From the NCBI RefSeq assembly GCF_964340395.1, contig NC_135569.1:339501-403500 (forward strand): a stretch of DNA of 64,000 bases, in the 5' to 3' direction. Below the pieces are notes generated by a model. That model made no database searches. It saw only the letters and a list, made by a program, of their open reading frames with translations, and was not told where the DNA came from. The position numbers and the translations under genes were made by a program. Shown here piece after piece: positions 1,301 to 49,765 of the stretch (position 1 is its first letter; every line of letters begins with the position of its first letter). Origin of the DNA: Glandiceps talaboti. Its lineage: Eukaryota; Hemichordata; Enteropneusta; Spengelidae.

Positions 1301-2963
1301 ATGTTTTGTTGTCAAGCAAATTTTAATTATTAATTATTATTTTAAAATATTCTTTAGCAAAAATTTGAGGTTTACAGCAACACAGTGTGACCTTTTGTCC
1401 TACAAAAAGGGGAACTGTTCTGACTTTTGAGATATTTATAGTTACACAATTTAAATTGATATATAATAACACTGGTAGTTCTGTAACTAAGCTTAGGCAG
1501 AGTACAATAGGTATGTTATTTGCTCACTTGTTCCTGGTGCACACTGTTGAATATAGTTTATCTCATAAACAAACACTTATAGCCTATAGAATGTATACGT
1601 AACAACCAACAAATATGGCAAAAGTTTACCAGATAGGGTGACAATTCTGCATATATTATTGAATTTTTTAAATACTCTTTATGTATTTAATTTTATTACT
1701 TTCAGCTGTAAGTAATGTGACTTTCTGTTGGTTGTTTGTAACATGTAAAGTTTAATCATGTATCTACGTAACTGTACTGTTTCCCTGTCTTGGCAATGTT
1801 CTTTTTTTAAGAAGAATTCGTCATGAATATGGATATGAATATGAATATGGATATGAATATATTATATATATTAGTATGTTTGTTCAAACAATTCACATAT
1901 TGGTAAGTGTCTCTTGCCATGTAATACCATACTTTAATGTTGTTTTCTGGCATAAACATTTTAAAATAAATTTACTACTATGATCTGTAATTTTTCTCAA
2001 GTGTATATTCTAAAATATAAACAAATGGACATGTTCTTACTTGAGGGATATTTCTGTAAGTTGACGTAATCACCTATTTTTAAACTGTAAAATTCAAAAC
2101 TAAATATAATTTGATAATTGTCATACTTTTTAATACCTACCTAATTAGTTACTAAGTTCCATTTTCTACATACTGATATAAAAAAGAAATTTCATCACAT
2201 ACGACGTGATATTTTTTTCTTTTGGTAAGTGTAATTCATAAATTGAGTATTACTATTGAGAAATTAAATAAATATGAAGGCATTATAATATATATAATTA
2301 AATATAATATCAGATATGAAATTCTACTCTGAAACTGAATTATTGAAATTTTATTATCTACAACATTTTATAAGTGATTCCCTTGAGTTCTCTCATAACC
2401 TGAAATAGAGTTTTACCTAGGTTAGTAGGTACGTCACAGAAATTCCAATCATTCAAGTTCTTGGTCGACATTATGACTTAATTCTGCTACACATGCAGTA
2501 CTAGACTCTAAGATATGCCATGTTGTTGGATATATATCTTGTATCATACAAATTAATACATTACTATAGGTTTGCATGAGAATATGTCAACCTTAATCTA
2601 TTTTGGCCATCTTGCAATGGGTAATTATGTTACTGCAGTACCAAGAATTAAATCACCTTTGGACATACATTATCCACGGTAACCACTATCATAAAGATAT
2701 GTTTGAAAAGAGTAGCTGGCAAAATGTAGAACAGTGGACTGACTGTACACTGAATACATGTTTTATTTGTATCAAACAAGGGAGTTTGGAGAATGTAGAA
2801 CAGTGGACTGACTGACCGTACAATAGATGTTATTTCATACTAGAAAGTGGCAGGTTAGAATTACAGCATATAACATAGTTTAAAATTGACAAGAATGCTA
2901 TGGTTGACACCAACTGACGTTGTAACTGTCCTGAACACACACCCAGTAGCCTTACATATTGCA

Positions 2964-3002
2964 TTAGACCATAGACCCTCCACCCACGTCTGTGATTAGA
3001 CT
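2964..3002. mobile_element. Short hairpin element, truncated copy, with 7-bp direct repeats
   Basis: The segment 2971-2995 begins with CATAGACCCTCCACCCACG, the same left arm as the complete hairpin at 23758-23793. It is bounded on both sides by the 7-mer ATTAGAC, which looks like a target-site duplication. The right arm is mostly missing, leaving only TCTGTG. Confidence 0.5.
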
Positions 3003-9953: not shown

Positions 9954-12900
9954 GTAAGTGTACACAAACTTGAACGAAGCACGGCAACAGTTGACGTTTT
10001 TATTTTTATACGACTGTGGAAAAATGTTTTTGTTTTTTTTAAATAGCTTGTAGCGTCAATGACTAAAGATGAGCCATACTGACAGATTTTCAGTTGATTT
10101 ATTACACTGATGTATCCTGTCTCGAAAATAACTTTTTTCTCTCGGCGCTGGAAACCCTTGCTGTGTGATGTGATATTTTGACGTTTATTGAAAGTTTGTG
10201 AGTCTATCGATAGAGGGCGACATGCATAAAGTTCGTCGGTCTGCCAGCGTTGGCTCAAACTCAAGACAATTTTATCGTTCAAGTTTTAATAGTTTTGTTT
10301 TTTATCAGTAATACTAGCAATCAATAGCTATGTGTAACTTAAATTTCCCTGTGAATGTAACTTATTTGCTCGAAAACTGTTACACTTCAAATGTGATCAA
10401 ATGGTAAACTTTGGTTGAGTGGAGAAAGCTGTGATGAGAACATTTCTCCTTCACTTGTATTTTGCTTTAAATATTGACCATCTTGTTTGCCCAGCAACCA
10501 CAAAACACAATAAATGCAATAACTTACATGTTCCGGGTTCATGCCATTACTCTCTGTGAACTGTGCATATTTTCTATTGATCCAAGGTATATGTACAATA
10601 GTATGTATTGTCCACAGACTGTGTCCCTCTATCACTGTCTATTGTCCTAGATACATGAGAGGCTCAGCCTCTAGATAAAGATCTATTTTCTGCTTTCAGT
10701 TTTATGCATGTTTTTGACAGATAAGGAAAAATAAAGTCATTGTCTTGTTATTTAAAATATATATATACAATTGCTTCAAGTTACTCTTCTGTTCTGAAGA
10801 GTTTGTGCAGTTTTACACTTTTAAAGTGAAAACCCTACTCAACAAAGCCAGCCAAGTTTACAACTGATTAATATTTTGTATACAAAAAGCTGATGTACTT
10901 TATGTCTATATAATAGTTTAAGACTAACTTTGTCAACATATCCTGTTTTTGGCAAAATGTATACCTAGGGTTATTTTGACACAAGGAATTAGAAACAACA
11001 GATCATCTTTTTTTTACCATGTTGTGAATTTTCCCCGTCTATTTTTTACTTCTTTCCAAAATGTATTTAGGAATGTAATCATCCTGAGATTCATTGTCGT
11101 CAACAGGTAATTCTAGGTTGTACAAAATTTTCATGATTAGCTAATTATTTACTGCTCCTTGGAAAGCAATTTCTTTACACTTGCAAGCTTCAGGAGATTC
11201 TTCCGAATATTAAATGTTTTTGTTGTACTGTGAATTTGAAATATGCTTAAAATGTCAAAAAGACTAATAGCCAGTAAAAATAATAGAAGTGCATCTCCAA
11301 AAGTTGTCATGCATGGAACAAGTTAAATTGTAATTGAGAGCTATGTACATTACTTGTATAATTTCCTTTCCAATTCCAGAGCCACACCCCCTCCCCCTCG
11401 CCCGTCTTTTCCATCTTTTCCTTTTTGTGTGGTTTGTGGTTTGTATGCTTTATTCTTTGACAAAATTTGAATAAGATTTGTTAAAAAGAAAAAAAAAACA
11501 TATCCTGTTTTTGTAGATATTATAGAAGGAAGTAGCCTGTAATTTTCCAACAGAAACTGACATAATATTCCACAAATATATCCCATACAAAAAGTTGATG
11601 TACTTCCTCCTCTAATTATTAATAGTTTCAAACTAATTTCCTCAACATATCATGTTTTCTTAGAACTTAGAAGGAAGCAGTATTCAACATTCTCAAAGTA
11701 AAAGTGCAAATTGTGATATTACTGCTTATATATACTAGGCCAACCAATTTACAACTTATATATTTTGTATACACAAGTAGGTGTACTTTGTGACCAAATG
11801 AAATCAGGTTTCATGGAAATCCTACATACTCCTTAATTTCTTAATTAACCTGCTTCAAAAGGTCATAGGTCATATACGGGTCATTTCCTAGATTCCTAAA
11901 TCTGAGTTTATCCTGTAAGAATGAAATACAAAAATGTTGTGATTCCCAACCACACCTAGTTTCAGATTTAAACTTTAGTTCTATAATTCCAGAGTATATA
12001 CAGACTATTCTGGTACATGTACCCCGTATTGCCCCCAGTATTGCCTATACCATACAACAAATGTCCTAACAGTCTGGTAATGCTCAAATTTATCGTGCCC
12101 ATTTAACAGTTAGATCTAACCAAGTGAACTTGTTCAGCTACAGTTAAATAGATTTCTTTTGGTCTGACTTATACCGTATTTATAAATTTGATGGTCCTGA
12201 TATGATGTATAGAAGTGAATGTATATGTTCCCTGGACTACTGCTAATATTGAACCCTGCATATGCATGTGTGTTGTCAAAAAAGTTGTGTTTTTGTCACA
12301 AGTCCTGTACAATGTGCTTCAAATCAAATTTTGGATTTGGGCTGCTAGTAAGATGTGATAGATTTTGTTCAAAGAATTTCATGCTCCAGTTGACACTTAC
12401 AATACCTGACTGAAATCAATTTCAAAAGAGTTCACTTGATGTCATTGTGTTCCTCTCAACTAATAGGTGATTATCATGTGAGTATTTACCTTCAGAGGCT
12501 TCCTACTTATATAGTATACATTTTATGGTTCAGTCAGTGTCTTAATGTAATGTAGATGTACACTATGAGTTACTAGATACCAGATACCTATAGTTGATAG
12601 TAAAGATTTAGGAGTTGAATTGTTAGAGGTTGTAATAAAAGTTTATGACTTGGTTTAGGGAAGATCAGTCAATGTCACACAAGGTTGTTGAAGTAAACAA
12701 CTTTGTTCATTTAGACAAGAAACCCCTCCTTCCCCTCCTTCCCCTCCCCTTAACAAACATTCTCAAGTGTGGCATCAATCCCTATGATCGATACAATGTA
12801 AAAATATGGACCAATGTGAAATCCATCACTGTATATCGCATTAGCAATATTAATTAACTTATCACAATATCAGTATCTCAGTATTAAATACTGAACCTGT

Positions 12901-15900
12901 TATTACTGAAGGCATGAGAGTTTTCAAAATTTGGTTCAAAGTGAAGCACAAATAAATGAAGGTCATCAATTGCATTGACACCAGACTCTCTACCCACAAA
13001 TTAACAAAGTTGGTTCCTTGAGTATGTGTGAGACTGCGATCATCCCTTACTAAAAACTTGAAATAGGATACTGCAATGATGACACTTACCTATTAATGTC
13101 TATGAATGTTTTTTATATGATACAGCTTTTGTAGAAATAACTCAGATGTCGTCAGTGTATTGATATGTCACCTGATCCATGAGTTAGTTTAGTAGCAAGT
13201 TTAATTGCCATATAATAGAGAAAGTAGATGATTTTTTTGTTTGTTACCAGCTCTTTATCTATCCCTGTGTGTTATTTATTGAGCTAGACACTTGTAAAAT
13301 ACATTGTTCAGTACAGTCATTTCTTTTTCTTTTCTTGAAGCTTTGTTCAACTGATAAGATTTTTTTTTCTCGATGACAGTCCAATAAAAATACCCTTTCA
13401 GCTCATTTGAACATATGAAAAATGACTTTATTAGGTATTAGAGTCAAGTCCACCTATGAAATATTTTATTTTCAGGTGTTACAATTTATTTTTCATTGAT
13501 GACTATTTTCAGTCTAAAATAAATGAAGTCCATAGTGAAAGTACTTTTGATGTTTGTCCATGTTTTTCACTGACATCTCAAAAATATCACATAAATTTGT
13601 TGTCCCTGGGTTGATTTCATGGCCCGTATGTGTATACAATGTGTCATTTCATGTAATGTCAAGAATCAATTAATAAGCCTTTACTGCAATATTGACAAGA
13701 ATCTGGAGGTTAGAGGTTATTTTTCAAACATAGTATGTATATCAGCATATGCGCATACATGTACTTGTTTTGCCTACTGGGATGTGTGGAGCCTTCTATC
13801 TATTCATACGATATTATACTCCTTGTTCATTGGCTATTCTGATGCAAATGAGTGTTTATGCAAATGAGGTGTATAGGCGTATGACCTCATTCTGATCAGG
13901 TGATCACTGTCTGTGCTAGGGGTCAAATTTCACTCATGCAGAGCCAGCCAGCACAGACCAAAGCCATTATATTAGTCTTCTAAATTTACATGGAATTTGT
14001 GTTGTCATGCTACATAATGGTACTAGCCATGTGATCACAGACTGTGAGATGTTTGGGTATGAGAGTGGTGGCTTCAAGGGAAGGACTTACAGGTCACGTT
14101 CTATGTACCAAGATAATACTACCTATGAAGATTACAGGTAGGATGAATCACTATCTATGGGATACGTAAACTAGACAGTGACTGTCGGGAAGCAATTTTA
14201 ACTTTGATCCCTCATAAGTCACATACTGTATTAGCTCACTTCACTATTGATATTCAAGGCTGTTTTATATAATACCTATTCTTATCTGGGTATTAGTATA
14301 ACAAAAAAAGGTTGTTTTCAAAATAGCAGTTCACACCCATTAGTGTGCAATTTGCCTATGAATGAAAAGTACACTGTAAGTGTAACAGTACATTTCGGTC
14401 ATATTTTGATCCCCAAGTCTGTGTCCGTACATCGTGTAGGATCTATGCAAAAGGTAGATTTTGTTCTATTCCAGCATGATACATCAAAGCATTTAAACCC
14501 TGCTGTTGTGGCTTGACCAGTAGGATACATTATAGGTGTACAAGTATACCTGGTTAAAGGAAGTAATGATCAATATGATTAATAGCAGGTAGCCATGACT
14601 ATTTTGATCAACTTATCGTGTATGAATTTTGATTGATGTATTAAACACTTGCATTGGACATTTCTAGAGTTGGACCACTGACCTGGAGTTCATTCCAAGG
14701 TCTATGTTGGCCTGGCAAATAAATATGATATGCAATAAGTGCAAGGAACAACCACTTGATGTGACTTATAGTGTAGTGAGATACGTATTGTAGCTCAATC
14801 AGAGATATCTCCTTAGTACATCCATGTAGAGATGCCTTGACAAGAACAGATAATTATATGTAAAATAATAACAAGGTCAGGAAAGACTGTGTGGCACTCA
14901 ATGATTTAGCGAAAGCTAAATGAGGAACCCCAGTAATAGAAAAGGGGAAAAAAGGATAAAAATTGTCACACTAAGTAGTTTGCCATAGAATCTGCCATGA
15001 CTCTGTTTAGGGACCCTAGTATAATGATAGGGGAACTCTTGTAGATTTTACCTACTCACCACCTGTAGGAAAACGCTGACCACTTCAGGAATTCTTATAG
15101 TACATATTATTTTCTATACATCTTCTGGCAGGTGTGTACTGTGTAGAAAAGTGGACTGACTGTACAATACACAATCATATTTTATATTCAAACTAGTGAG
15201 TTAGGGCAAAGACCCTCCACCCACAGTACTTATTGTCTAAATTGGTGGAGGGTCTATGGTTTAGGTTTAGATATAGGAATACAATGTAGGGTTAGCCTCA
15301 CTAGTGTTAACTTGATTTACAAATTGATATAGTCTGCAGCAATGTAAAATGTAGTTAATCACTGCAATAACACAAAACTAAACAACCCTTTGAGATCCTG
15401 ATAGTGCTAGGATCCTAGGATCCGGGTATAAGTACAATTGTGATTGATTTACAAGACATATAACACATTTAGGTGTGACTCAGAAAATCAATAAATTAAG
15501 TGACAATCCTCAATATTGAAATTCGTGGCATTTGATACATTACAGCTGATTTAATGGCCTTTGTTCAAATTTTTTTTGTAAAAGTATGAAACATTAACTC
15601 AATAATGTATTTTTTTGAACCTATTAACATTACTGTGTATTATGACCATCCGTGGATAGAATATTAGTTCACAAGTAGTGTAGTCCCTATACAGTATTGT
15701 TATGATTTATACCTTTACCACAGTTGGCATCCAGACAAGTTCACAAGTGACTGTGATTGACTGCAGTGTAGTGTTCAAGTGTCATCAGGCCTCTTAGTAA
15801 GAATAATGTATAGATAAGGTAGATAAGGCCCATGTATGTTGTTACTTAGAGGTAGGATAGTCCTTTGGTTTCATACCCTCTATCAATTTGTATTGCCTAC

Positions 15901-22800: not shown

Positions 22801-25800
22801 TAAATCTGGAGATCTTGCCACTCACGTCTACACTGAAAGGTGTTACGTATTCTGGTTAAGGGTCAGTGTTCAAGGAAGTAAAATTTATATCTTGAATTTA
22901 TAACTTGTACATATGTTTGCATGGCTTTAATGTGTTTGTATGAGTAGAATTTTACCATAATAATAGTCACTACTTACATTCTTGTGTGTAATATAGATAG
23001 GTGTGGTGTGTGTACATGTAGTATCCTGGTCATGAATCAACAATAGAGCATGTTTAAGGAAATAAGTTGAATTTAGTTACCAATATTCTTACAAAGAGAG
23101 TCTGACTGCCAAGCTATTGGTTGAGAGTAGTTATATAATTTACCAATATTCTACAAAGAGAGTCTGACTGCCAAGCTATTGGTTGAGAGTAGTTATATAA
23201 TTTACCAATATTCTACAAAGTGAGGTTGACTGCCAAGCTATTGGTTGAGAGTAGTTATATAATTTACCAATATTCTACAAAGAGAGTCTGACTGCCAAGC
23301 TATTGGTTGAGAGTAGTTATATAATTTACCAATATTCTACAAAGAGAGGTTGACTGCCAAGCTATTGGTTGAGACTATTTGTATAATTTACCAATATTCT
23401 ACAAAGAGAGGTTGACTACCAAGCTATTGGTTGAGACTATTTGTATTATTGTTAGCTCATAGAAGTTGGCTATGTAAATGATTTCCACCCATACATCTTG
23501 GAACCAGAAAACTTGACTACTGGTATTTGTATCTAACAGAAGCCATACATGTAACTCCCCAGTATCAATTTGGTGTACTCAGGGTATTGCATGAATGCTA
23601 TAGTTTGGTGTACTCAGGGTATTGCACGAATGCTATAGTTTGCAACTTGTTCTTTGTGGCTTACTTTCAAGAGTGAAGTCAGTAAAAGTATTAAGGAGAA
23701 AAATTTACACCTGAAGTAGGAGTTTATATTTTGGTCAGAAAGAATAGTGAATTTGACCATAGACCCTCCACCCACGTTGGTGGAGGGTCTATGATTTGAC
23801 AGACAGTGAAAAGGCTTGTAGTCCCAACATTGTCATTGCCATGATCATATGATGTACAATAACTTATAAATCATCATTGCCATGATCATACGATGTACAA
23901 TAACTTATAAATCATGGGATGGGAATACATTGAGTAAATACTACTAGTCTAGTATATCATTCAAACACAGTAAGTTTGTGACAGCTGGCCCATTATTTTA
24001 TCCAGTTCACCGTAAAAGTGGGATTTATGAGGTTCACAGTCTTTGGGTGTTGTTGAAAAAGTTCTACAACAAAACTTATTGGAGCATACCATGCCATCAA
24101 ATCATTGAAGTGTAAGATAGAAGGCCATAAAAAAGTACATGTACATTGTACATTGATTCAGAACTTTCTTGGGGTGGGTTTATTTCAGAACTTTCATGGG
24201 GTGGGTTTATTTCAGAACTTTCATGGGGTGGGTTTATTTCAGAACTTTCATGGGGTGGGTTTATTTCAGAACTTTCATGGGGTGGGTTTATTTCAGAACT
24301 TTCGCGGGATAGGTTTATTTCAGAATTTTCATGGGATGGGATTATTTCGGGACTTTCATTGGATGGGTTTATTTTTTTACTTGAATTATGATTCAGACAA
24401 AGAAAAAATATTTGAAATTTTGATAATGATGAATGTTTGACTGAAAGTGTCACAGGGTGAGTTTATAAGTGTTTTACTTACTGCAGTGAAAATACTTACA
24501 TTAAATCTTAATTAAACTCTTCAAGTATGTATATGTTAATGTCAATTCATGATTTCTATGACATTAACATTATCTTAAAGCATTGTTGATGATCATGTAT
24601 GATATGGTAGGATTTCCTCTACATTTTTTATTCGTATGACCTGGCCTTTACATGTACCAACCTTTCTATTATAGCACTACGGCTATTCTCAGGGACCAAT
24701 GAATATATCTGAGCTCTATTGTAAGCAAGTGTGTATTATAAAAGCCTGTTGTCTAATTTAGTATTTAAATGAGATAGGATGAATCTCATGAATAGGTCAA
24801 AGCATAATGAGTAGAGGATCTAAGGTTGAACAATAACCAGTGTCTTGTGATGGTATTAGTATATGTAGACTTGACTAGGTGTTGGCATGTAGTGTCAGTC
24901 ATGGATTGGTGATTGAATCTCAGTGTTGGTTGTATGAGATTGATCATTGCTACTTTAGCTTACACTGTCAAGTAATGGAAAAACTCTGTTTTGACAACTC
25001 TGGTAAGTCATGTTATGCAGTACATGTATAGATATGTGTTGGTTACCTATATAACCGTAACATTGTAGTTTCAGTCACGTCTGTAACCTCACTGATTGAT
25101 TGAATCTCACTGTGTTGCGTATCTGAGATTGTATCATTGCTACTTTGGCCATATCGTCAAGTAATAACAGAAAATAATGGAAAAACTCTGTTTTGCCATC
25201 AATGGTATGTGGTACATGAATGTTATATCATTCACATTAAAGCTGTGAAAGATATGATGTTTACAACAGTTGCATTGAATATGGCAGGCTGACTGGATGA
25301 GTACATTTAGAGTGTACATTTTATACTTTCTCTTGCACCATCCACTAAATTAAAGTGTACCTGACACATCCTAAATTGCCATTCTGTCAAATGTTCATGT
25401 GCCAAAGTAAAATGCTTACACTATCATTGATTGAAAGTCATTATCCACATCAAAATGTCACTCATTGAAGTAATAAATGTGCAAAGTACACGGTGTATTG
25501 TCAGTAGACAGACAGTATTTTGTATGGTGTAAACTAACAATGACTGAAATAACAATCACTGCGTTATAGCTTGAAGTCATATTAAAAATACAGTAGCAGT
25601 GTGTCCTCTTATGATAGCCAAATTTTGATGTTGTGAGTCAATGTGTGAAAAACTGGGATTTCTTGTGGGTCACCATGATGAAGTAAGATATAGGAACATG
25701 AAATTTTGGTGCGTCACTAGAATTTGTGTGTGTTGGTGGTGCATCAAATTGGCTTAGAAGTTAGAGGGCACACCACACTGTAGAGTGTACATGCACAATG

Positions 25801-30900: not shown

Positions 30901-33900
30901 CCAACTTCTAATATCTCTGGCCACCACAGATGGCAGCAATGCTTACCAACTTCCAATATCTCAGGCCACCACAGATGGCAGCAATGCCAACCAACTTCCA
31001 ATATCTCTGGCCACCATAGATGGCAGCAATGCTTACCAACTTCCAATATCTCTGGCCACCAGAGATGGCAGCAATGCCAACCAACTTCCAATATCTCTGG
31101 CCACCACAGATGGCAGCAATGCCTACCAACTTCCAATATCTCTGGCCACCACAGATGGCAGCAATGCCTACCAACTTCCAATATCTCAGGCCACCACTGA
31201 TGGCAGCAATGCCTACCAACTTCCAATATCTCTGCTATTTTATGCTCCTATTAAACCTAGATTATTCACAATTAATGATGCAGAAACATATTTTTATTAT
31301 CTGTAGGTGACGATTTATCAGAAAAAGTTGATTTCATTATCTGTCTAGGAGGAGACGGTACATTATTGTATGCATCTTCATTATTCCAAGAGGTAAGAAT
31401 GTGACAGATTTAAGTGTTTTATATCTGTTGTATTCATGTACAAAAATAAACTGGTTGGTATGGCTTAATGTCAGAGTTACTTCATCTCACTTAAGAAATA
31501 ACAATTTTAGTTCATACAAGAAACAGTTAAAATGTGATGAAATTATTTGAACCTTTATCACCTACTAGAAATATGAAATATTACTGAGAAGTAAAAAAAC
31601 AAAAAAATTTAAAATGTAAATTGTACCAAAATGAAATAATTCCACTGATATAAAAAAAAAAACACACAAAAGACTAATTGTGGTTACCATTGAGCACACA
31701 GATTGGATGGGGAGTTGTTAGAGTTTAGGTACTGATGGCCAGCAATTAACACTCTAATGATGGGAATTGTCCTTTAGAAAACTAGAAGCCTTTAGTACAA
31801 ACTGTTTCAAGTTAACATCAGCAGCTCTGTTTGATACCACCATGCAGAAACAAATAAGAAACTGTGTATTCTACACTGAAATAGCAAGATCACAATTACT
31901 TGTTACATTATGAACCAAACCACTTAAAAATACTGCAACTAGATGCAGTCATGTGGGCGTCAATGTTTAATGCTTGCATTTGATGTTTGCGTGCTTGGTA
32001 GCATTTCAGTTCATTTCAAATTTCACAAGAAACTTCATTCAATCGTGCTATCTTAAAATGTAGCATGTGCAATTTCTTAGTGGTTTCTGCATGGTTGTAT
32101 CAAACAGAGCCAGTGAACAGTAACTTCAAATAGGCTGTAAATTGAATCTGTATTGTCACCATGTACACTAATTTCTGTCAATCTCTGGAAAATACCAGGC
32201 AAGTAATAATTCATAGCCCATGAATTTGTTCATATTGTGTTGAATTTGAATTGAATACTTTAAACTCTCACTCTGTGTTTAACAGGGCAGTGTACCTCCA
32301 GTCATGGCATTCCATCTCGGATCATTAGGATTTCTGACACCATTTGATTTTAGTGAATTTAAAGAATCAATAACTCAAGTTCTTCAAGGTAAGTCTCATA
32401 AGGAATGCATCTATTAAAGATGAAATAACCCTCATTTATATCAGCAGCTATACTGGGTATATGATAATAGTTATTGTTGCATACATGCTATTACTGTACC
32501 TGCAGTGCCATACTGGGTATATGATAATAGTTATTGTTACATACATGCTATTACCTGCAGTGCCATACTGGGTATATGATAATAGTTATTGTTACATACA
32601 TGCTATTACCTGCATTGCCATACTGGGTATATGATAATAGTTATTGTTACATACATGCTATTACCTGCATTGCCATACTGGGTATATGATAATAGTTATT
32701 GTTGCATACATGCTATTACCTGCAGTGCCATACTGGGTATATGATAATAGTTATTGTTACATACATGCTATTACCTGCATTGCCATACTGGGTATATGAT
32801 AATAGTTATTGTTACATACATGCTATTACCTGCAGTGCCATACTGGGTATATGATAATAGTTATTGTTACATACATGCTATTACCTGCAGTGCCATACTG
32901 GGTATATGATAATAGTTATTGTTACATACATGCTATTACCTGCAGTGCCATACTGGGTATATGATAATAGTTATTGTTACATACATGCTATTACCTGCAG
33001 TGCCATACTGGGTATATGATAATAGTTATTGTTACATACATGCTATTACCTGCAGTGCCATACTGGGTATATGATAATAGTTATTGTTACATACATGCTA
33101 TTACCTGCAGTGCCATACTGGGTATATGATAATAGTTATTGTTACATACATGCTATTACCTGCAGTGCCATACTGGGTATATGATAATAGTTATTGTTAC
33201 ATACATGCTATTACCTGCAGTGCCATACTGGGTATATGATAATAGTTATTGTTACATACATGCTATTACCTGCAGTGCCATACTGGGTATATGATAATAG
33301 TTATTGTTACATACATGCTATTACCTGCAGTGCCATACTGGGTATATGATAATAGTTATTGTTACATACATGCTATTACCTGCAGTGCCATACTGGGTAT
33401 ATGATAATAGTTATTGTTGCATACATGCTATTACCTGCAGTGCCATACTGGGTATATGATAATAGTTATTGTTACATACATGCTATTACCTGCAGTGCCA
33501 TACTGGGTATATGATAATATTTATTGTTACATACATGCTATTACCTGCAGTGCCATATTGAAGATACCATTTCATCCCATTTTGTGAAAAGCATGCGGGA
33601 AGTTCATATACATGAAACCATATAAACAGAGGTGGATTTTTACAAAGCTTGTCCTTTTCATATGTACTGGTAATATTAATAGAACCCTCTTACAGAAAAC
33701 CCCATGACACACATATGAGTGACTCTTTGAATAATTTTCTCATCAGGAGAAGTACCAATCACTCTGAGGAGTCGGTTAAAATGTATGGTAATGAAAGATG
33801 AGGTCAGTAGCTCACCAGATGAATCTGATGACAATGACAGTGGAGTTTCTATCACATCTAGGAAAGATAGTTCCAATAATTCAGCATTTACAGTCTGTGA

Positions 33901-36900
33901 AAGACAGGCAAGTAGATTTCCTTTTCTTTTGATTTATGACCCAAAGAGTGGCAATGATAATGATTTGACCCAAAGAGTGGCAATGATAATGATTTGACCC
34001 AAAGAGTGGCAATGATAATGATTTGACCCAAAGAGTGGCAATGATAATGATTTCACCCAAAGAGTGGCAATGATAATGATTTGACCCAAAGAGTGGCAAT
34101 GATAATGATTTCACCCAAAGAGTGGCAATGATAATGATTTGACCCAAAGAGTGGCAATGATAATGATTTTTAGATTTATATTATCACTTCCAATGTTATT
34201 CTAACTATACAGTGATTAGTCATCAAGAGGTCCAGTCCATTTTAGAACTTATTGTGTGTGATGACTAGCTTAGAACTCTTAAGCATCAAATACTTTCCTG
34301 CAAAAAGAATGTCAAATGTGAAATTTTTTTGTTATATTTCAACATTATTTTAGACAGGAATAATAGAAATAATACTTATTTGTGAATTGATGATAGAAAT
34401 TATATTACCTGCCTGCAAAAGTTGTTTGACAAAAATTCTTGTTATTCTGTAAATTCTTGACACATTAATGTTATTTTAGACTGGAATCATACACATAATA
34501 CTTTCATGTGAATTGATGATAAAATTGTGTTACCTTCTCACCAAATTTTTTTGGACAAAAAATTCTTGTTTATGTTTAAATTTTTGTCACATCTCAACTT
34601 TATTTTGAAGTGGAATTGTAGAAATAACAGTCATTCCAAAATTGCTAGCAATATTTTGTATTTGAAAGTTGTCATATTTAGTGAAAACTTAGTTCAGTAA
34701 ATCGTTGTTTTGTGTACATACATCAATAACTGAAGATGATAAAATAGTCATACCAACATCGCCCTCAGTGCCCAGCTCAATCAAGTGATTTGTGCAGTGT
34801 GCTCATTTACAGGTCTTAAACGAGGTTGTTATTGACAGAGGACCAGCTCCGTATATCTCAAATTTAGATTTGTATTTAGATGGAAGACACATTACATCAG
34901 TACAGGGTGATGGTGAGTTGATGACAGGTTCTAGAAAATAACAATAAAAAAGTAGTAGTGACAATAGCCCATTGTAGTACCCTGACAAAGCTGATATGTC
35001 AGCAAACATTTGGGACTCGCTTCCAAAAAATGCTTTGACTCTGTGAGTAGACATCTTCATTACTAAATTTAAAAAGTGATTGTTGATTTGTGGGTACTAA
35101 CTAAATTGGAATGTAAGAAATAATGAGAATCAACTGAATGTAGAGTATTTTTGGTAATACAGCATCCTGCTCTTGGAGGATCATAGCTCTGGAAACATAA
35201 ACTTTGTTCACTGTGACACATCTTCCATTCAACTCCTTTATATTTCCTCCCTATCTTTGGCCCCAACACTGTGCATCAATTTTCTGTGCACAGATTTTCC
35301 GCCAACAACCTTTCTAATGACTATAAAAAAACATTTATAGTCATTAGCAAGGTTGTGGGTGGAAAATCTGTGCACAGGAAATCGATTGACAGTGTTGGGA
35401 TTCTAGATAGGGAGGAACTATAAAGGAGTTGAAATGAAGATATGTTGTAGTGAACGAAGCACGTTTCCAGAGCTACCAGTATGAGGATCATGACAACTTC
35501 TTTGATCAGCAAGCTACATGTAATCTCAGGCTCTGTAACTGTCTGTCATTTTGAATGTTGTAAATTATGACCATTTATTTCTACCCATAGTTGAATCACT
35601 TGCTTAGATACAGCCATCATAAATATGATGTGTAACTGAAAAATATCATCAATATTTTTTGACCTGAATATCATCCAAGTTGAAAATAATAACGTGTACA
35701 TTTCACAATGTTTCAAATAACCAAACATCACACAAGTGATCAGGAGCAAGATATTGTTTGAAAATAACAAGCCAATTGGAAGAGCAAATAAACTTATGCA
35801 AGTGATTTGTGCATGGAGATTCATTGAAACAATATTTTGATTTGAAATTTTGATTTTTGATGAGAAATGTCAAAAAATACCTTCAATCAGATTTAATTAT
35901 CTCCCATGTTATTGCCTTCTACTATGCAAATTACATTCTTAAACATAGACTTTCATACTTGCACAGAGAATGATGTTACATTAACTATCATACCTCCCTC
36001 TGTGTATAGGCTTGATAATCTCAACACCAACGGGTAGTACAGCATATGCAGCAGCAGCAGGAGCTGCTATGTGTCATCCCAATGTTCCTGCAATTCTTAT
36101 CACTCCAATTTGTCCACACTCCTTATCATTTCGACCAATAGTAGTGCCAGCCGGTGTTGAACTCAAGGTATGTTTTATAAAGTATGTGGGGAGAGGGGGT
36201 CTAGGAAAGGGGAGAGCAAGCAAGTAAGTATGGTATGGTGTATATCTAAATCAGTTATAATGGTATTTAGTTTGAGAACTTGAAAAAGGCAGTTTTAGAG
36301 GAAATACTCATGAGTGCTCAGCAATCCTGCTATCTTAATAATGATAATAATGGTTTATTTTACAATACTGGCGTGACCCAAATGACAGAGTTGAAATAAA
36401 ACAAGAACACCACCACTCATTCTTGTAAGACTGTAGACAACCAGACTAATGAGAGATAACATAGATATGATAGTTTTACTGTACTTAGATACACGTTGTG
36501 TAGAGTGTGTGTATATTGATGTAAATGTCGTAAATTGAGCAGCCATTTCCAACAAGTGTATATCCTTGACATTGTTGTAGAGGTTATGGTACAGATGTAC
36601 TATTTCTGATAACTTTACATCTGTTTAGTCATTGTAGAGGTTATGGTACACATGTACTATTTCTGATAATTTTATATCTGTTTTGTGGTTGTTTAGGTTA
36701 TGGTACCTACTGACTCACGTAGTACTGCCTGGGCATCCTTTGATGGTAGGAATAGACAGGAAATACATCAGGGTTGGCGGTAAGTTAAGAGACATAGTGA
36801 CTACAGATTGGTTGTCAGGTTTGGCTGTAAGTTGACAAGACATAGTTACTACAAAATGATTGTCACCTTTAATATATCATAGAATATTTTGAGAATAATA

Positions 36901-44301: not shown

Positions 44302-47280
44302 ATGACAGGATTACATTTATCTATCAAGTCGCTGATTTTTCTTCTGGTTATTGACCCTGTCCTCGTACAAGCAGACGACCAGCTCTGCCATGGCGACCTC
44401 CTAGACAACACCATAATGGACTGCATGAACAAACGGTTGACTGAAATACCAACAACATTAAACCCAAGTACGTCAGAGCTGTACCTGAGTTACAACAACA
44501 TATCCACAATTGAAGAAGGTTCCCTTACCCGCTACCCTGACCTGGAGTATCTGAATTTAGGATGGAACCTATTAGACAAAATTGAAAAACATTATTTTCT
44601 TGGTATAAGACATTTAAAGACACTTAGTTTAATTAACAATCCTATAAGACATTTTGAAGACGATAGTTTTGCTGATTTGTCAGTGTTAACTAAGTTGTAT
44701 TTTGAACATTGTAATGTACAGAATCTGAACACGCACATGTTTGATCCACTTGGAAAGCTTGAAATCTTACAAATGACAAATTGTGGTATAAAAACGATTC
44801 ATTCAAATGCCTTCTGGGGTCTTTGGTCTTTAAAGTATCTAGACCTGTCCAACAACCAACTAAAATTTCTTCCACCTGATTTTCTAAAACACTTGTCCAC
44901 CCTTGAAAGTGTCGATTTGAGTGACAACCTGTTAGAAGCTCTTCCTAAGTACATGTGCGTGTTTGCATCTGGCATACGTTTTGTATCCAGCAAAGGGAAC
45001 CCAATGCGTGGTCTGAACATGGGACCTGGATGTCTGTCCCTGAAAATATTAAACGTCGCACAATGTGGATTGACCCACCTTAAAACAAGCGTTTTTGAAT
45101 CCCTGCAGTCAACCAATCTTGATCAATTGATTCTGTCTCATAATCAATTCGATACTGTAGATAAACAAGCCTTACTTCAAATCCAATCCATCGGATCAGT
45201 CGTATACCACGGTCAAGGTTATAACATGACTGACTTTTTACACTTTTTACAAGCTTTATATGGCCACAAGAATATTACTTCATTGCATGTTTCTGAATGG
45301 AATTTGATTAAATTACGCAAACAGACCTTCAGAGCACTTATTGGGGTTCCTTTGAAAGAATTGCATTTAGATTCCAACGGAATAGAGAAACTTGAGCATG
45401 GTGCGTTTTCTAAATTGCTATCTCTTAGACAGCTTTGGTTGAGCAACAACAAAATTGCTAAAATAGAAGCACGTACCTTTGCTGGTCTTCCAAGATTAGA
45501 ATTGCTCAACCTTGCAAACAACGACTTACAACGTGTTTCAGGAGGGTTTTTTGACGGCCCTTCTTCTCCAATGTCATTGAAGAATCTCGAGCTATCCCGT
45601 AACGAAATTGATTCGCTTGATGTTGAAATGTTGACAAATTTGTGGCAATTTTCCTACCTTGGTCTTTCGAGTCAACGAAGTGAACGGGTACACATTAAGG
45701 ATGATATTATCTCTCTTTTGTTACACGTGGAATACGTAGACTTGTCCAATATAGATTTAAGCTATTCTGAAACCTACATGGAAATAACTACATTACGTTC
45801 TCTACATCCCCAATATCAAAGCAACGCAACGTTTCATGAAGTGTTTCCAAAGTTGAGCAATTATAATAAATCAATCAAAATCAACTTACGAAGTTTAAAC
45901 ATCAGCTATTCAGGTATATTCCCATTCGTAGAGAATATGCTGAATTATTTGTATAACAACAACGGTGTGGTCATTATTCAGCATTTTTATGCTGATGGCG
46001 TTTTAGACAGGAGTCAACCAGGTCCCTTCCCAATACAAATTATACAACTGCTAAAATATTCTAAGTCAATTTCGCTTGGATACAATAATATTGATTCGAT
46101 ACCACAGCGTAGCTTCGTTAATTCTGGTCAGTTAACAAGGCTTGATTTAAGTTTCAATGCTATATCATCTCTGACGAAAAACACTTGGGAAGGACTGATA
46201 AATTTGCAATACCTGAGTATACAAAATAATTACTTCACTGTATTATTCCCAGATTATTTTTACAACCTGCCAGCTTTAGTGGAACTCAAGTTACAAGGTA
46301 ATCCTCTTTACTGCGATTGTCATCTCGCAGTCTTCCTTATGTCTCTCAAAGCAGTGTTGTTACCAGTTGAACCTAAACATGGAAAAAGATTACCGTATTA
46401 TTTTCAAGACTACGAGTACACGTGTAGTAACATGCATATCACGTTTTTATCTAACGATCCTTTCTGTGCCTCGGCACCTAGATCGTATATATTTCTACCA
46501 ATATCGCTATTTATCACTGGTATTATGGTAGCATGTCTCCTTGTGGCGTCATCGATGTGGGCTTCTAGAGTACGGGAAAAGTTTAAAACATCTTCATATA
46601 GCGAATTTCAAAATATAGACGGGAGAGGTGGTAAAACAAAGAAAGGCAAACAGGCTAGTATGACGCAACAAATGCAAAAATGCTATGATTACGACGTCAA
46701 TATTGTTTATACAGAAACGGATAGAGATTGGGCAGAAGCAAATATTGCTACCCCTCTTCATGACAATCACAAATTAAAAGTCTGTACCAAAGAAAGGGAA
46801 TTCATACCAGGATACAAAACAGATGCAAGTATCAAAGCAATTTCAAAGAGCAACAAAACCATTTTTGTTCTTAGTAATGAATTTATACATCAGCAAAGAT
46901 GTGAATATGAACTAAAGATGGCCTTACAAGAAAAAGAAAAGAACAGGAACGTTGTGTTACTTGTAGCTAAAGAAGACGTTCGTCAGCAAGTCAGGACAAC
47001 CATGCTTCCTAATGTTATGTTTGAAAATCATAAAGTGTACCCAAATAGTGATAATCCGAGAGATATTAAGACATTCTTTGACTGGTTAGTGAAGGAAATC
47101 AAAACTCCAAGTAAGAGGCATAGTAAAGCGAATAAGAAATGTTGTCGAAGTAAGTGTGCTAAGGACAAGGAGAAATGTTGTCCTAGTACATGCATTTCAC
47201 AGTGTGGACTAGGCTGTGGAGATTCAATAAATAGTCTTACAATCTCTGAAACAGATATTATAATGGAAAGTTCTGTCTAA
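44302..47280 (+). CDS. Toll-like receptor, single coding exon, 992 aa
   Basis: Membrane pattern-recognition receptor that signals through a TIR domain. The ATG in caccATGA is followed by a signal peptide (about 1-24), an N-terminal Cys pair (C29, C41) and a long series of leucine-rich repeats, for example LKYLDLSNNQLKFLPPDF and LRQLWLSNNKIAKIE. One C-terminal LRR cap begins GNPLYCDCHL (C671, C673). A transmembrane helix lies at about 729-754. The TIR domain at about 794-930 has box 1 (YDVNIVYTE), box 2 VCTKEREFIPG with the signalling Pro at 836, and box 3 FFDW at 925-928. A single cysteine cluster puts it in the vertebrate-like single-cluster class. The tail after the TIR has eight Cys at about 943-975 and ends ESSV. 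No introns interrupt the coding region. The ligand cannot be inferred. Confidence 0.96.
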   Translation: MTGLHLSIKSLIFLLVIDPVLVQADDQLCHGDLLDNTIMDCMNKRLTEIPTTLNPSTSELYLSYNNISTIEEGSLTRYPDLEYLNLGWNLLDKIEKHYFLGIRHLKTLSLINNPIRHFEDDSFADLSVLTKLYFEHCNVQNLNTHMFDPLGKLEILQMTNCGIKTIHSNAFWGLWSLKYLDLSNNQLKFLPPDFLKHLSTLESVDLSDNLLEALPKYMCVFASGIRFVSSKGNPMRGLNMGPGCLSLKILNVAQCGLTHLKTSVFESLQSTNLDQLILSHNQFDTVDKQALLQIQSIGSVVYHGQGYNMTDFLHFLQALYGHKNITSLHVSEWNLIKLRKQTFRALIGVPLKELHLDSNGIEKLEHGAFSKLLSLRQLWLSNNKIAKIEARTFAGLPRLELLNLANNDLQRVSGGFFDGPSSPMSLKNLELSRNEIDSLDVEMLTNLWQFSYLGLSSQRSERVHIKDDIISLLLHVEYVDLSNIDLSYSETYMEITTLRSLHPQYQSNATFHEVFPKLSNYNKSIKINLRSLNISYSGIFPFVENMLNYLYNNNGVVIIQHFYADGVLDRSQPGPFPIQIIQLLKYSKSISLGYNNIDSIPQRSFVNSGQLTRLDLSFNAISSLTKNTWEGLINLQYLSIQNNYFTVLFPDYFYNLPALVELKLQGNPLYCDCHLAVFLMSLKAVLLPVEPKHGKRLPYYFQDYEYTCSNMHITFLSNDPFCASAPRSYIFLPISLFITGIMVACLLVASSMWASRVREKFKTSSYSEFQNIDGRGGKTKKGKQASMTQQMQKCYDYDVNIVYTETDRDWAEANIATPLHDNHKLKVCTKEREFIPGYKTDASIKAISKSNKTIFVLSNEFIHQQRCEYELKMALQEKEKNRNVVLLVAKEDVRQQVRTTMLPNVMFENHKVYPNSDNPRDIKTFFDWLVKEIKTPSKRHSKANKKCCRSKCAKDKEKCCPSTCISQCGLGCGDSINSLTISETDIIMESSV

Positions 47281-49765
47281 AGCAAAGAAATATATTCGTG
47301 CCTTTTAATTTATTTCATACCCACTGACAAATCGTATGCTTTGCTAATTCATTGCTTACCCACAGATAAATCTTGGATTATGCAAGAAATCAGTTAAAGT
47401 CAAATACATTGATCTGGTCATATTTGTTCAAAATAGTTATTGAAATATGTAAACTTGTATAAGTTATAAGGTTAACAACTATGAAATGTCTGTCTCTGAT
47501 TTTCAGAGTCCCTACCAATTTCTTGTATAAAGCATCATTATTTAGTTGATGACGTATATAGACGAGTGTGAGCGAGTGCGTGTAAGGAGTAGACCGGTCA
47601 AAATCAACAAGGGTATACCATCCCAGAAGTGATTTACTGCTATTATATTATATTATACCAGTGTAGTGATATTTACGGTGAAACTTTTTGAAATGTGAAA
47701 AAAACTGGAGTTTGGAGTGGAAATCCAATGGATCGGCCCCAGTATCTGAATATTTGCTGAATTTGTTTATGATTACTTCGAATTTATACTATTAGGTCAG
47801 AGGTAAATAACATCAATAAACTTACATTTAAACAACAAATCGTTTACCACAGTGCAGACGATGTATGTAGTTTTGTTTATGTTGTACACCGTGTGGTGAG
47901 TTAACTTGTGAAAGGTTTGAAGCTAGACTCGCTTTGTGCCAGATTTACACACATCATCTGCCAGGCCATGTGTACGTTTTGAAGGAGTCAAGAACAACGG
48001 AATAGGCCTATGCTAAAACGTTCGAGCTCTCTCTGCTAATGCAGCTATCCGTGATTGTCAGCAAATAAGGGTGGGTTATCTCGTTTTACCAATACACAAA
48101 GGAAGGGGTCACAGTTTATTTGCCGAATACTATAATACTGTAATCGACTGATTTCGAGCAATGACCAACTGCTTGATGTTGGCATGCGATTAATAGAATA
48201 ATAAAACGTTTTTATTCGTCATGAAATTTCCTTTGCATTGACAGGAACCACATACTATTAACCACATAGATTAGATTACATTTACTCCATTAATAAATCC
48301 ATGAAAAGTAAAGATTACAATATATACAAATAAATATATTTAGCAGTGATTACATGTTATTAATGAGTTAAATTGATCTTGGCATGAAACTAAACTTAAA
48401 CCTGTTTGTACGTGCATGTGTTACTCTGAGGCGACGGCCATTTGTGAGATATTCATATTATGTAAGTAGTGGATGTGTTGGAGCTATGGTAATTTTTGTA
48501 GCAGTCTTAACCGCTTTGTCTTTACACACAATATAGAGTTATCAGAAGTGCCTAAGGCTCTAACACAGTTGGGTGTTATGCATTCTCCTGTTTATATGGT
48601 TAAGAGTTCACCAGGTCTCAAACTGCTAAAATGTGAACCCCCTTACCCCTTGCCCTCTCCCTTGTATTTACTGAAGGCTCCCTAAGTCTTATTAACAACA
48701 TATCTGTAACTATTATTAAACAATAAAAAATTAATCGATCCAAAGACATTCATCAGTTTGTTTTCATGATATGTATAACGATAAACATTCAGTCCACTGA
48801 AGAAGTAAATCGAGTCTAGATGAAATATTTCCTGCTCGTGATAAAATAACATATATTATATATTATTATCTTGATATTGAGTTATATGCCCGAGGTGCTA
48901 GGATATGTTATAATATACCTAGTGTTAATGCTGTGCCATGATTCGCTAGAATCAGTCACGTGATAGGAAAATAGAATGACTACTTCCCTTGGGGAAATAG
49001 TCCCATCAATTTTTACATGGTCACGTGACCACCGCGCGTTCACAGCAGGTCAAAATGGCAGCTTCTCAGTGACGATGTCGTCTGCCACCGCGAGTTCACA
49101 GCATGAGGTATATTATAAAACACATATTGCCTGGCCTATATTCGGGCTATAGCACCCGTTCATTACCCCCTCGTGACTGTGAGTTACCAGAATCACATGC
49201 TATTTCCCTCGGCCGTTGGCCTCGGGAAATAGCATGTGATTCTGGTAACTCACAGTCCCTCGGGTGTAATAAACGGGTGCTATAGCCCTCATGGCCAGGC
49301 AATATGTGTTCAATATGCACGACGGGTAGCAGAGTATGTTTTATGGCAGAATTTTCCATTTACAAACGTGTATTCATCACAAATAGATGTTGATTTTGAT
49401 GCACAGAAATTTTCGTTTTGTTTCTGCATGTCAAAATAGTTCCAGGTTGATTTCAGTCAATATGAAAAAAGAGTTCCGGGTCATTTTCGGTCAGTACCGT
49501 AATATATACTGCTAGGTCATAATCACTTTCCCCATTGAAAACAATGCATTACGGGGTGGTCCAGTGTAAGTGACATATAATAAATAGGCATCTTTATCAG
49601 TTGTGCATAATTATGACAATCTTCTTAAACATAAGGCATTGTTCTTGGGGATGTCCATACAAATGTATGCACATAGTGCAATGCATGCTCATGTCATAGT
49701 GAAGTGTATATGCACATTTAGATGTCATAGTGAAATGTGTCCATATAATAAAATGTACACTCCTG
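47281..49765. other. Intergenic region after the TLR
   Basis: AATAAA at 47815-47820 is the first good poly(A) signal after the TLR stop and may end its transcript. No further gene is evident. A GC-richer part near 48.9-49.3 kb holds a large foldback element. Confidence 0.55.
49106..49315. mobile_element. Foldback element with about 100-bp arms
   Basis: The arms are near-perfect complements: aacacatattgcctggcc, gggctatagcacccgtt and gtgactgtgagttaccagaa on the left mirror aacgggtgctatagccc and ggccaggcaatatgtgtt on the right. The turn is at about 49207-49220 (ccctcggccgttggcctcgg). Weakly related words (gaatcagtcacgtgata) lie just upstream at 48.95 kb. No coding capacity. Confidence 0.8.

Follow-up and report, generated by a model that had tools for sequence, protein, structure and literature searches.

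Introduction

Scars left by P-element excision are already known from fly genetics. The P transposase makes a 17-nt staggered cut (PMC7776569), and the fly excision data in PMC2895639 give the donor ends as 17-nt 3' overhangs. Many of the joins described there consist of the 8-bp duplication, up to 17 nt, a microhomology or an insert, again up to 17 nt, and the duplication. These laboratory junctions include templated insertions and recurrent joins, two of which were each represented by 14 isolates. In 20 isolates of that paper's junction table, joining at long microhomologies had removed the ends entirely or mostly; scars of this type are not detectable by an arm-based search such as ours.

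We analysed a 64,000-nt stretch of the Glandiceps talaboti genome (the window, at its full length; C23:339501-403500 of a 590-Mb assembly), in which a short hairpin at 23758-23793 can be regarded as the natural counterpart of those fly junctions, except for a duplication of 7 instead of 8 bp and a kept end of 18 instead of 17 nt. We consider it very probable that the hairpin is the excision footprint of a P-superfamily cut-and-paste transposon that made 7-bp duplications and had the ends CATAGACCCTCCACC(A/C)AC.

The hairpin and its relatives in the window

The hairpin reads CATAGACCCTCCACC CACGTT GGTGGAGGGTCTATG and lies directly between two copies of ATTTGAC, as an earlier reading of the letters alone (the sequence-only reading) had noticed (Table 1). 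That reading had also placed a six-base loop between the arms. The hairpin itself was recovered by repeat finding with arms of 18 + 18 nt that are 94% complementary, but each arm takes in three further bases and the loop is absent. CATAGACCCTCCACCCAC abuts GTTGGTGGAGGGTCTATG directly, and the two ends read as CATAGACCCTCCACC followed by CAC or AAC. We infer that the hairpin is a scar of 18 + 18 nt.

Two further copies were examined in the window. The second reads CATAGACCCTCCACCCACGTCTGTG; the ATTAGAC that the sequence-only reading had seen on both sides of it is present, but the copy occupies 2970-2994 and not 2971-2995. The third, which begins with the left arm CAAAGACC..., corresponds to the longer-looped stem reported earlier at 15209-15257; its spacer measures 22 nt, its flanks (GTTAGGG/GTTTAGG) match imperfectly, and it is probably a scar with filler. 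No open reading frame of 100 aa or more overlaps any of the three copies. The 12-nt core of the arm, AGACCCTCCACC, occurs 7 times in the window at up to two mismatches (1.91 expected), a number reached in 0 of 100 shuffles. We also scanned the window for palindromes (stem of 6 or more) enclosed by 7-bp direct repeats. Four were found, whereas 10 shuffles gave a mean of 0.0; the hairpin accounts for one of the four, and two or more of the rest lie within tandem repeats. A short dispersed repeat (GTAGAACAGTGGACTGACTG...), at 2714-2831 and 15131-15179, precedes two of the three scars by differing distances.

Table 1. Coordinates of the hairpin, its relatives in the window and further 7-bp-flanked palindromes (window positions unless a locus is named)
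Feature	Position	Strand	Remark
Left target-site duplication ATTTGAC	23751..23757	+	exact match to 23794-23800
18 nt putatively kept from one transposon end, CATAGACCCTCCACCCAC	23758..23775	+	
18 nt putatively kept from the second transposon end, reading CATAGACCCTCCACCAAC in minus orientation	23776..23793	-	filler-free join
Right target-site duplication ATTTGAC	23794..23800	+	
Left target-site duplication ATTAGAC	2963..2969	+	
25-bp excision scar	2970..2994	+	18 nt of one end and 7 nt (GTCTGTG) of the other
Right target-site duplication ATTAGAC	2995..3001	+	
Possible decayed target-site duplication GTTAGGG	15200..15206	+	2 mismatches to GTTTAGG
52-bp probable excision scar	15207..15258	+	18-nt arm (one base altered), ~16-nt filler, ~17-18 nt of inverse arm
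Possible decayed target-site duplication GTTTAGG	15259..15265	+	
Palindrome CATAGACCCTACAC, 7-bp-flanked	L105:340-400		
Palindrome CATGGAAGTAGAACC, 7-bp-flanked	L060:2915-2962		
Palindrome CATGGAGGTATAAC, 7-bp-flanked	L059:1912-1957		
Palindrome CTTGGAGGAATTATAC, 7-bp-flanked	L111:315-365		
Palindrome CTCAGACC, 7-bp-flanked	L080:535-576		

Abundance and flanking duplications in the genome

The core AGACCCTCCACC was found 2,596 times (1253 + 1343) in the 590-Mb genome, against 20 (10 + 10) for a reversed control. We read the 100 arm matches listed, all on contig C1 up to 16.9 of its 35.9 Mb, and merged them into 84 sites. A duplication was counted when it directly adjoined an ATG-like tip, for which one mismatch was permitted, and enclosed an element of 15-59 bp. 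By this rule 44 of the 84 sites carried an exact 7-bp duplication, against 0.3% expected when flanks were swapped between sites. A further 8/84 had exactly one mismatch (3.3% in swapped flanks), so that 52/84 carried a duplication with at most one (3.7% expected), and the other 32/84 had no tip-flush 7-bp duplication at that tolerance. An alternative null with one arm per site gave 0.4% for exact duplications and 2.6% with up to one mismatch. A looser count over 100 oriented arms, including 5 window arms, found 56 exact duplications where 0.9 were expected. Of the 36 sites in which CACAT follows the arm, 12 more were read, and 7 of these had an exact 7-bp repeat and 2 had one mismatch. At 52 sites per 100 arms, these counts suggest about 1,350 recognisable scars with this arm, if the half of C1 that was read is typical and with later duplications of scarred segments not subtracted.

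From 45 sites with exact duplications we obtained the palindromic target motif T..GTTNAAC..A, in which the T and the A each lie three bases outside the 7-mer; the 7-mer alone averaged 1.20 self-complementary pairs of 3, compared with 0.83 in random 7-mers. Flanks beyond the duplication were near background at these sites except at the one T and the one A position, and the mean identity of the left 14 bases between sites was 5.0 against 3.8 for random 14-mers. The flanks of the window copies are more alike than this. ATTTGAC and ATTAGAC agree at 6/7 positions, in part because the preferred target is GTTNAAC-like; the contrast between the two 7-mers is less marked than the sequence-only reading suggested. 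The copies at 2970 and 23758 have 11/14 upstream bases in common and form a gapless alignment of 54 nt, flank included, with 80% identity, and the summed upstream similarity of the three copies was matched by 1 of 200,000 random triplets. This likeness exceeds the average predicted by the target preference, which explains the excess only partly.

The alignable flanks, and three left flanks more alike than random, are what would be seen if the copies were pieces of one longer dispersed repeat containing a hairpin, and some scars do lie inside later-copied repeats (L040/L055/L090; L057/L085/L099). Descent of the whole set from one repeat is nevertheless scarcely conceivable: it is contradicted by the exact duplications at 44/84 sites and by flanks that differ as soon as the duplication ends. 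The use of the window flanks as an argument against insertion was overturned by this genome-wide set of sites. The sequence-only reading had argued for insertion from the different duplicated 7-mers at two sites and had proposed a genome-wide collection of arm matches with a test of their flanks, in which long shared flanking sequence would have spoken against it; the collection upheld the argument. The 7-bp repeats are thus supported as target-site duplications from separate events.

Diversity of the junctions

The sequence-only reading suggested a mobile-like unit of 36 bp. An ultra-short MITE of about that size, transposing itself with a borrowed transposase, would explain why many sites have tips, inverted arms and 7-bp duplications. 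MITEs are recognised by one interior common to the copies. Among the 45 distinct exact-duplication sites (two from the window), we found 44 different whole-scar sequences, also when strands were merged. Their lengths ranged from 19 to 46 bp, and the second arm was trimmed to anything from ATG to 18 nt, the upper limit being the end of the alignment template and fixed by construction. At several loci the filler restarts the arm (L046, L072, L134 and L140; imperfectly at L137). Four doubtful sites were kept among the 45, namely two in the L059 tandem array, together with L082 and L096, in both of which the repeat is not tip-flush; without them, 36/41 end in ATG. An all-against-all comparison of up to 600 bp downstream of each arm revealed, beyond the arms, only later-copied repeats and segments. 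This diversity of junctions disfavours the 36-bp mobile unit, which we regard as very unlikely.

Exact two-armed palindromes with a loop of 0-30 numbered 199 genome-wide, against 0 in the control. The 50 listed had 39 distinct loops after strand merging. Their commonest loop length was 6, equivalent to 18 + 18 nt (10/50), followed by 2 (9). In the 32 listed loops of at least 6, 35 of the 64 sides retained the complete set of three further end bases, past which the sequence varied from loop to loop. The commonest loop and the diverse bases beyond it point to a limit of 18 nt in the hairpin's family, past which (~18 nt per end) nothing shared was seen. As the copies would be repair products of excision, the inserted unit was probably a longer element that has since departed.

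Some scars appear to have changed after they formed. A tandem duplication of ~2.46 kb carries one scar twice (L054:3018-3050 and L054:5476-5501), at 33 and 26 bp, and this scar appears to have changed in length after the duplication, one copy being 7 bp shorter. At L059:2640-2975, a small tandem array with a unit of ~33 bp, made of scar and duplication (CATAGACCCTCCACC..CTATGACCACAC), is apparently a minisatellite born from a scar.

P-superfamily elements and probable scars of a sister family

The P-transposase RNase H profile PF21787 had 13 matches in the genome and 0 in 14 control genomes. Two of the loci, on C14 and C19, agree at 99.5% over 6.7 kb and at 98.3% over another 2.9 kb, and their similarity starts at CATAGACAGTGGAGGGG. 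They are elements of 9,454 and 9,667 bp with perfect 36-bp inverted repeats that start with CATAGAC. An exact 7-bp duplication encloses each of them; the two read GTATAAT and GAGTAAC. The C14 copy, the one scanned, encodes PF21787, PF21788 (the GTP-binding insertion) and PF21789 in this order on one strand. A THAP domain was not detected in the open frames scanned, and a phmmer search with the 750-aa frame returned no solved structure at E 0.001. The inverted repeats start with CATAGACCC in the hairpin's family and CATAGACAG in this sister family, both with CATA. The longer element with a transposase that the sequence-only reading had proposed to look for therefore exists in the sister family; for the hairpin's own family, the search found none.

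The 18-nt tip of the sister element had 358 matches in the genome, and palindromes built from its end numbered 64 against 0 in the control. Because the sequence of this element's end is known far past the scar region, the cut-off can be measured. Among the 100 sides of the 50 palindromes listed, 31 kept exactly 20 nt, 3 kept 21-23 and 66 kept 15-19, where 15 is the floor of the search pattern and two pairs of identical adjacent rows were left unmerged. Kept length thus falls sharply after 20 nt though the real end goes on. Flanks were read for 20 sister scars; at the fixed position, 14 had an exact 7-bp duplication, 4 had one mismatch and 2 had none.

These lengths also bear on whether the copies are internal-deletion derivatives, made by interrupted synthesis-dependent gap repair and not by simple end joining. 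Gap repair would likewise leave both ends between the duplications, and some scars carry long fillers, such as that of L106 (below). Gap repair copies variable, often long, stretches of each end. In the sister family only 3/100 sides exceeded 20 nt, and the hairpin's family has no shared sequence past ~18 nt, although selection of both sets, as short palindromes or by arm, means that longer derivatives would be under-counted. We consider gap repair highly improbable as the source of these copies, and prefer excision followed by end joining.

Junctions recur more in the sister family than in the hairpin's own: the 50 listed include 26 distinct junctions, three of which account for 21, and the commonest occurs 9 times. 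Flanks were read for five copies of this commonest join, and four had exact, mutually different duplications; L159 had none. A re-mobilised tiny element could give this pattern, and it is the best opening for such an element. The sharp fall past 20 nt speaks against it. We read the recurrent junction as a preferred join, because two single joins were each recovered 14 times after laboratory P excision (PMC2895639).

Further families and other features

A third family, with the palindrome CATGGAAGTAGAAC, had 24 copies genome-wide and 0 in the control. Five of the 24 are exact 17 + 17 joins with the same 34-mer, which a tiny mobile element could again explain; some fillers in this family re-copy the arm. 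Four copies on C22 have one junction in common and may be copies of one. With the hairpin's family and its sister, scars of at least three families would be present, with limits of 20 nt (measured) and putatively 18 and 17 nt. A long staggered cut is suggested by these kept lengths, 20 nt in the sister family, 18 in the hairpin's and 17 + 17 in the third. The likely stagger varies by family (18, 20, perhaps 17 nt); that of the Drosophila P element is 17.

Palindromes outside the selected arm were also found between 7-bp repeats in the fetched DNA, and the five in Table 1 are probably scars of other P-type transposons. A scan with the family arm excluded gave 10 matches at a repeat length of 7 bp, three of them in the window, while the counts at 6, 8, 9 and 10 bp were 8, 3, 1 and 2. 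A single random set, matched in size, produced 1 match at 6 bp and none at any other length. Most of the matches at lengths other than 7 resemble tandem repeats. No 7-bp-flanked palindrome was present in two 8-kb stretches taken at random.

The window has several other features. An 8-bp repeat, CAAAAGGT, encloses 2,584 bp at 11856-14455, with the ends CATAGGTCATATACG and CATAGATCCTACACG; this candidate element (11864-14447, 2.58 kb) has no long open frame and may be an old element or chance. Large imperfect palindromes lie at 35202-35459 (126-nt arms, 84%) and 49144-49288 (71-nt arms, 90%). Minisatellites are dense at 32450-33557 and elsewhere (41 tandem-repeat rows in 64 kb) and include a 55-bp unit in 20 copies. 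An uninterrupted frame of 992 aa at 44302-47280 encodes leucine-rich repeats and a TIR domain, of the Toll-like receptor type, which fits animal DNA.

Search for the parent of the hairpin's family

An intact element with CATAGACCCTCCACC ends was not found in the DNA read inward of each C1 arm, which spanned 434-7,446 bases (median 1,000); parents could be missed because this inward DNA is limited and 32/84 sites show no recognisable duplication. A possible longer parental end, ..ACAGGATACGC, occurs in L116 and in one row of the two-armed palindromes.

One candidate parent was rejected. L106:523-636 is a 114-bp unit with 18-nt arms and an exact 7-bp duplication, CTCGAAC, and was considered as a non-autonomous parent. 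Its interior (filler of ~78 bp, mostly repeat) belongs to an abundant repeat (402 matches, often in clusters), of which a 91% copy lies ~1.8 kb away. L106 is more probably a scar whose filler is large, the repeat having possibly been captured during repair.

Outside this genome, viral_contigs (31 stretches) and genome_contigs (2) gave 35 arm matches, two of them with a 7-bp repeat (one a T-run). None of the 35 passed an inverse-arm test (8 bases, one mismatch), which misses the two genome_contigs palindromes that the search pattern had picked out, and these matches look like chance or GC-rich bacterial hairpins. BLAST against phages gave no match, Rfam and tRNA searches gave none, and a literature search with the exact arm sequence returned nothing related by title.

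Discussion

The P superfamily is marked by target-site duplications of 7-8 bp, which were found at 44/84 C1 sites, at 14/20 sister scars and around the sister elements. Its terminal inverted repeats start with CA (here CATA), its target motif is palindromic, as it is across the 45 sites, and its transposase has RNase H-like halves split by a GTP-binding insertion, here found in the sister element. As the parent was not found, the assignment of the hairpin's family to the superfamily follows from tip, duplication length, target motif and scar form. The duplications, the diverse junctions, the arm-recopying fillers and a P-superfamily element with matching tip, duplication length and scar type can be read in the DNA itself, and point to cutting, repair, an 18-nt stagger and a P-element parent of this family.

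On this evidence, a transposon would have inserted at ATTTGAC, duplicating the 7-mer, and its transposase would later have excised it with a long stagger, leaving ~18 nt of each end. These remnants would have stood on the chromosome as single-stranded 3' overhangs, and the broken ends would have been filled in, trimmed and joined, probably by (alternative) end joining. The two ends being inverted repeats, a join without trimming gives a near-perfect palindrome of 36 bp between the duplications. Trimming of one end would produce shorter, asymmetric copies such as 2970-2994, and synthesis before joining would produce longer copies with fillers, probably including 15207-15258.

We are evenly divided over a broader reading, in which a 'ghost' P-superfamily transposon, gone or nearly gone as an intact element, is recorded by more than 1,000 scars. 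Site by site, these would keep the choices of germline end joining between trimming, microhomology and templated insertion in a non-model animal; with families that differ in stagger (18, 20, perhaps 17 nt), scars alone could reveal the cutting geometry of extinct transposases. From such an archive one could count past excisions of a transposon of which few or no intact copies remain, read the cutting distance of a transposase from a genome, and measure the germline end-joining spectrum, including fillers that re-copy an end (compare the templated insertions of the fly). The scars would form a natural record of how chromosome breaks healed in Glandiceps talaboti. They also advise caution in repeat annotation, as short palindromes with duplications are not necessarily mobile elements. 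None of the titles and opening lines of abstracts listed in searches of an open-access library described a natural genome with such scars by hundreds to thousands.

Among relatives of the P element, Galileo of Drosophila, a member of the superfamily, also makes 7-bp duplications, at a palindromic GTANTAC within a 15-bp palindromic motif, compared with GTTNAAC within T..GTTNAAC..A here (PMC4168063). The inverted repeats of Galileo are long, some lengthened by internal tandem repeats, whereas those of the sister element measure 36 bp; the word 'footprint' is absent from the main text of that paper. The inverted repeat of zebrafish Pdre2/THAP9 begins with CATA and ends with CAAC (CATACCTGTCAAC), as here, but its duplication is 8 bp and an intact element is known (PMC10983969). 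Repeats start with CATACC in Pdre2 (PMC10983969) and with CATGATG in Drosophila (PMC2895639). The P-MITEs of Anopheles gambiae, as described in PMC1562414, are likewise duplication-flanked, non-autonomous relatives of P; they have a consensus with a central region and 8-bp duplications, in contrast to the copies here, which have no shared interior.

A close likeness is to the Drosophila P excision junctions of PMC2895639, in which the duplication is followed by both inverted ends, with trimming, microhomology or a templated insert, and by the duplication again. Those junctions were obtained in the laboratory at one locus with an 8-bp duplication, whereas the scars here are natural, dispersed, more than 1,000 by extrapolation, and flanked by 7 bp. 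The arm limits would be 18 and 20 nt, and perhaps 17 in the third family, compared with 17 in Drosophila P (PMC2895639). The hairpin is ordinary in mechanism and unusual in form and amount, one of about a thousand or more by extrapolation.
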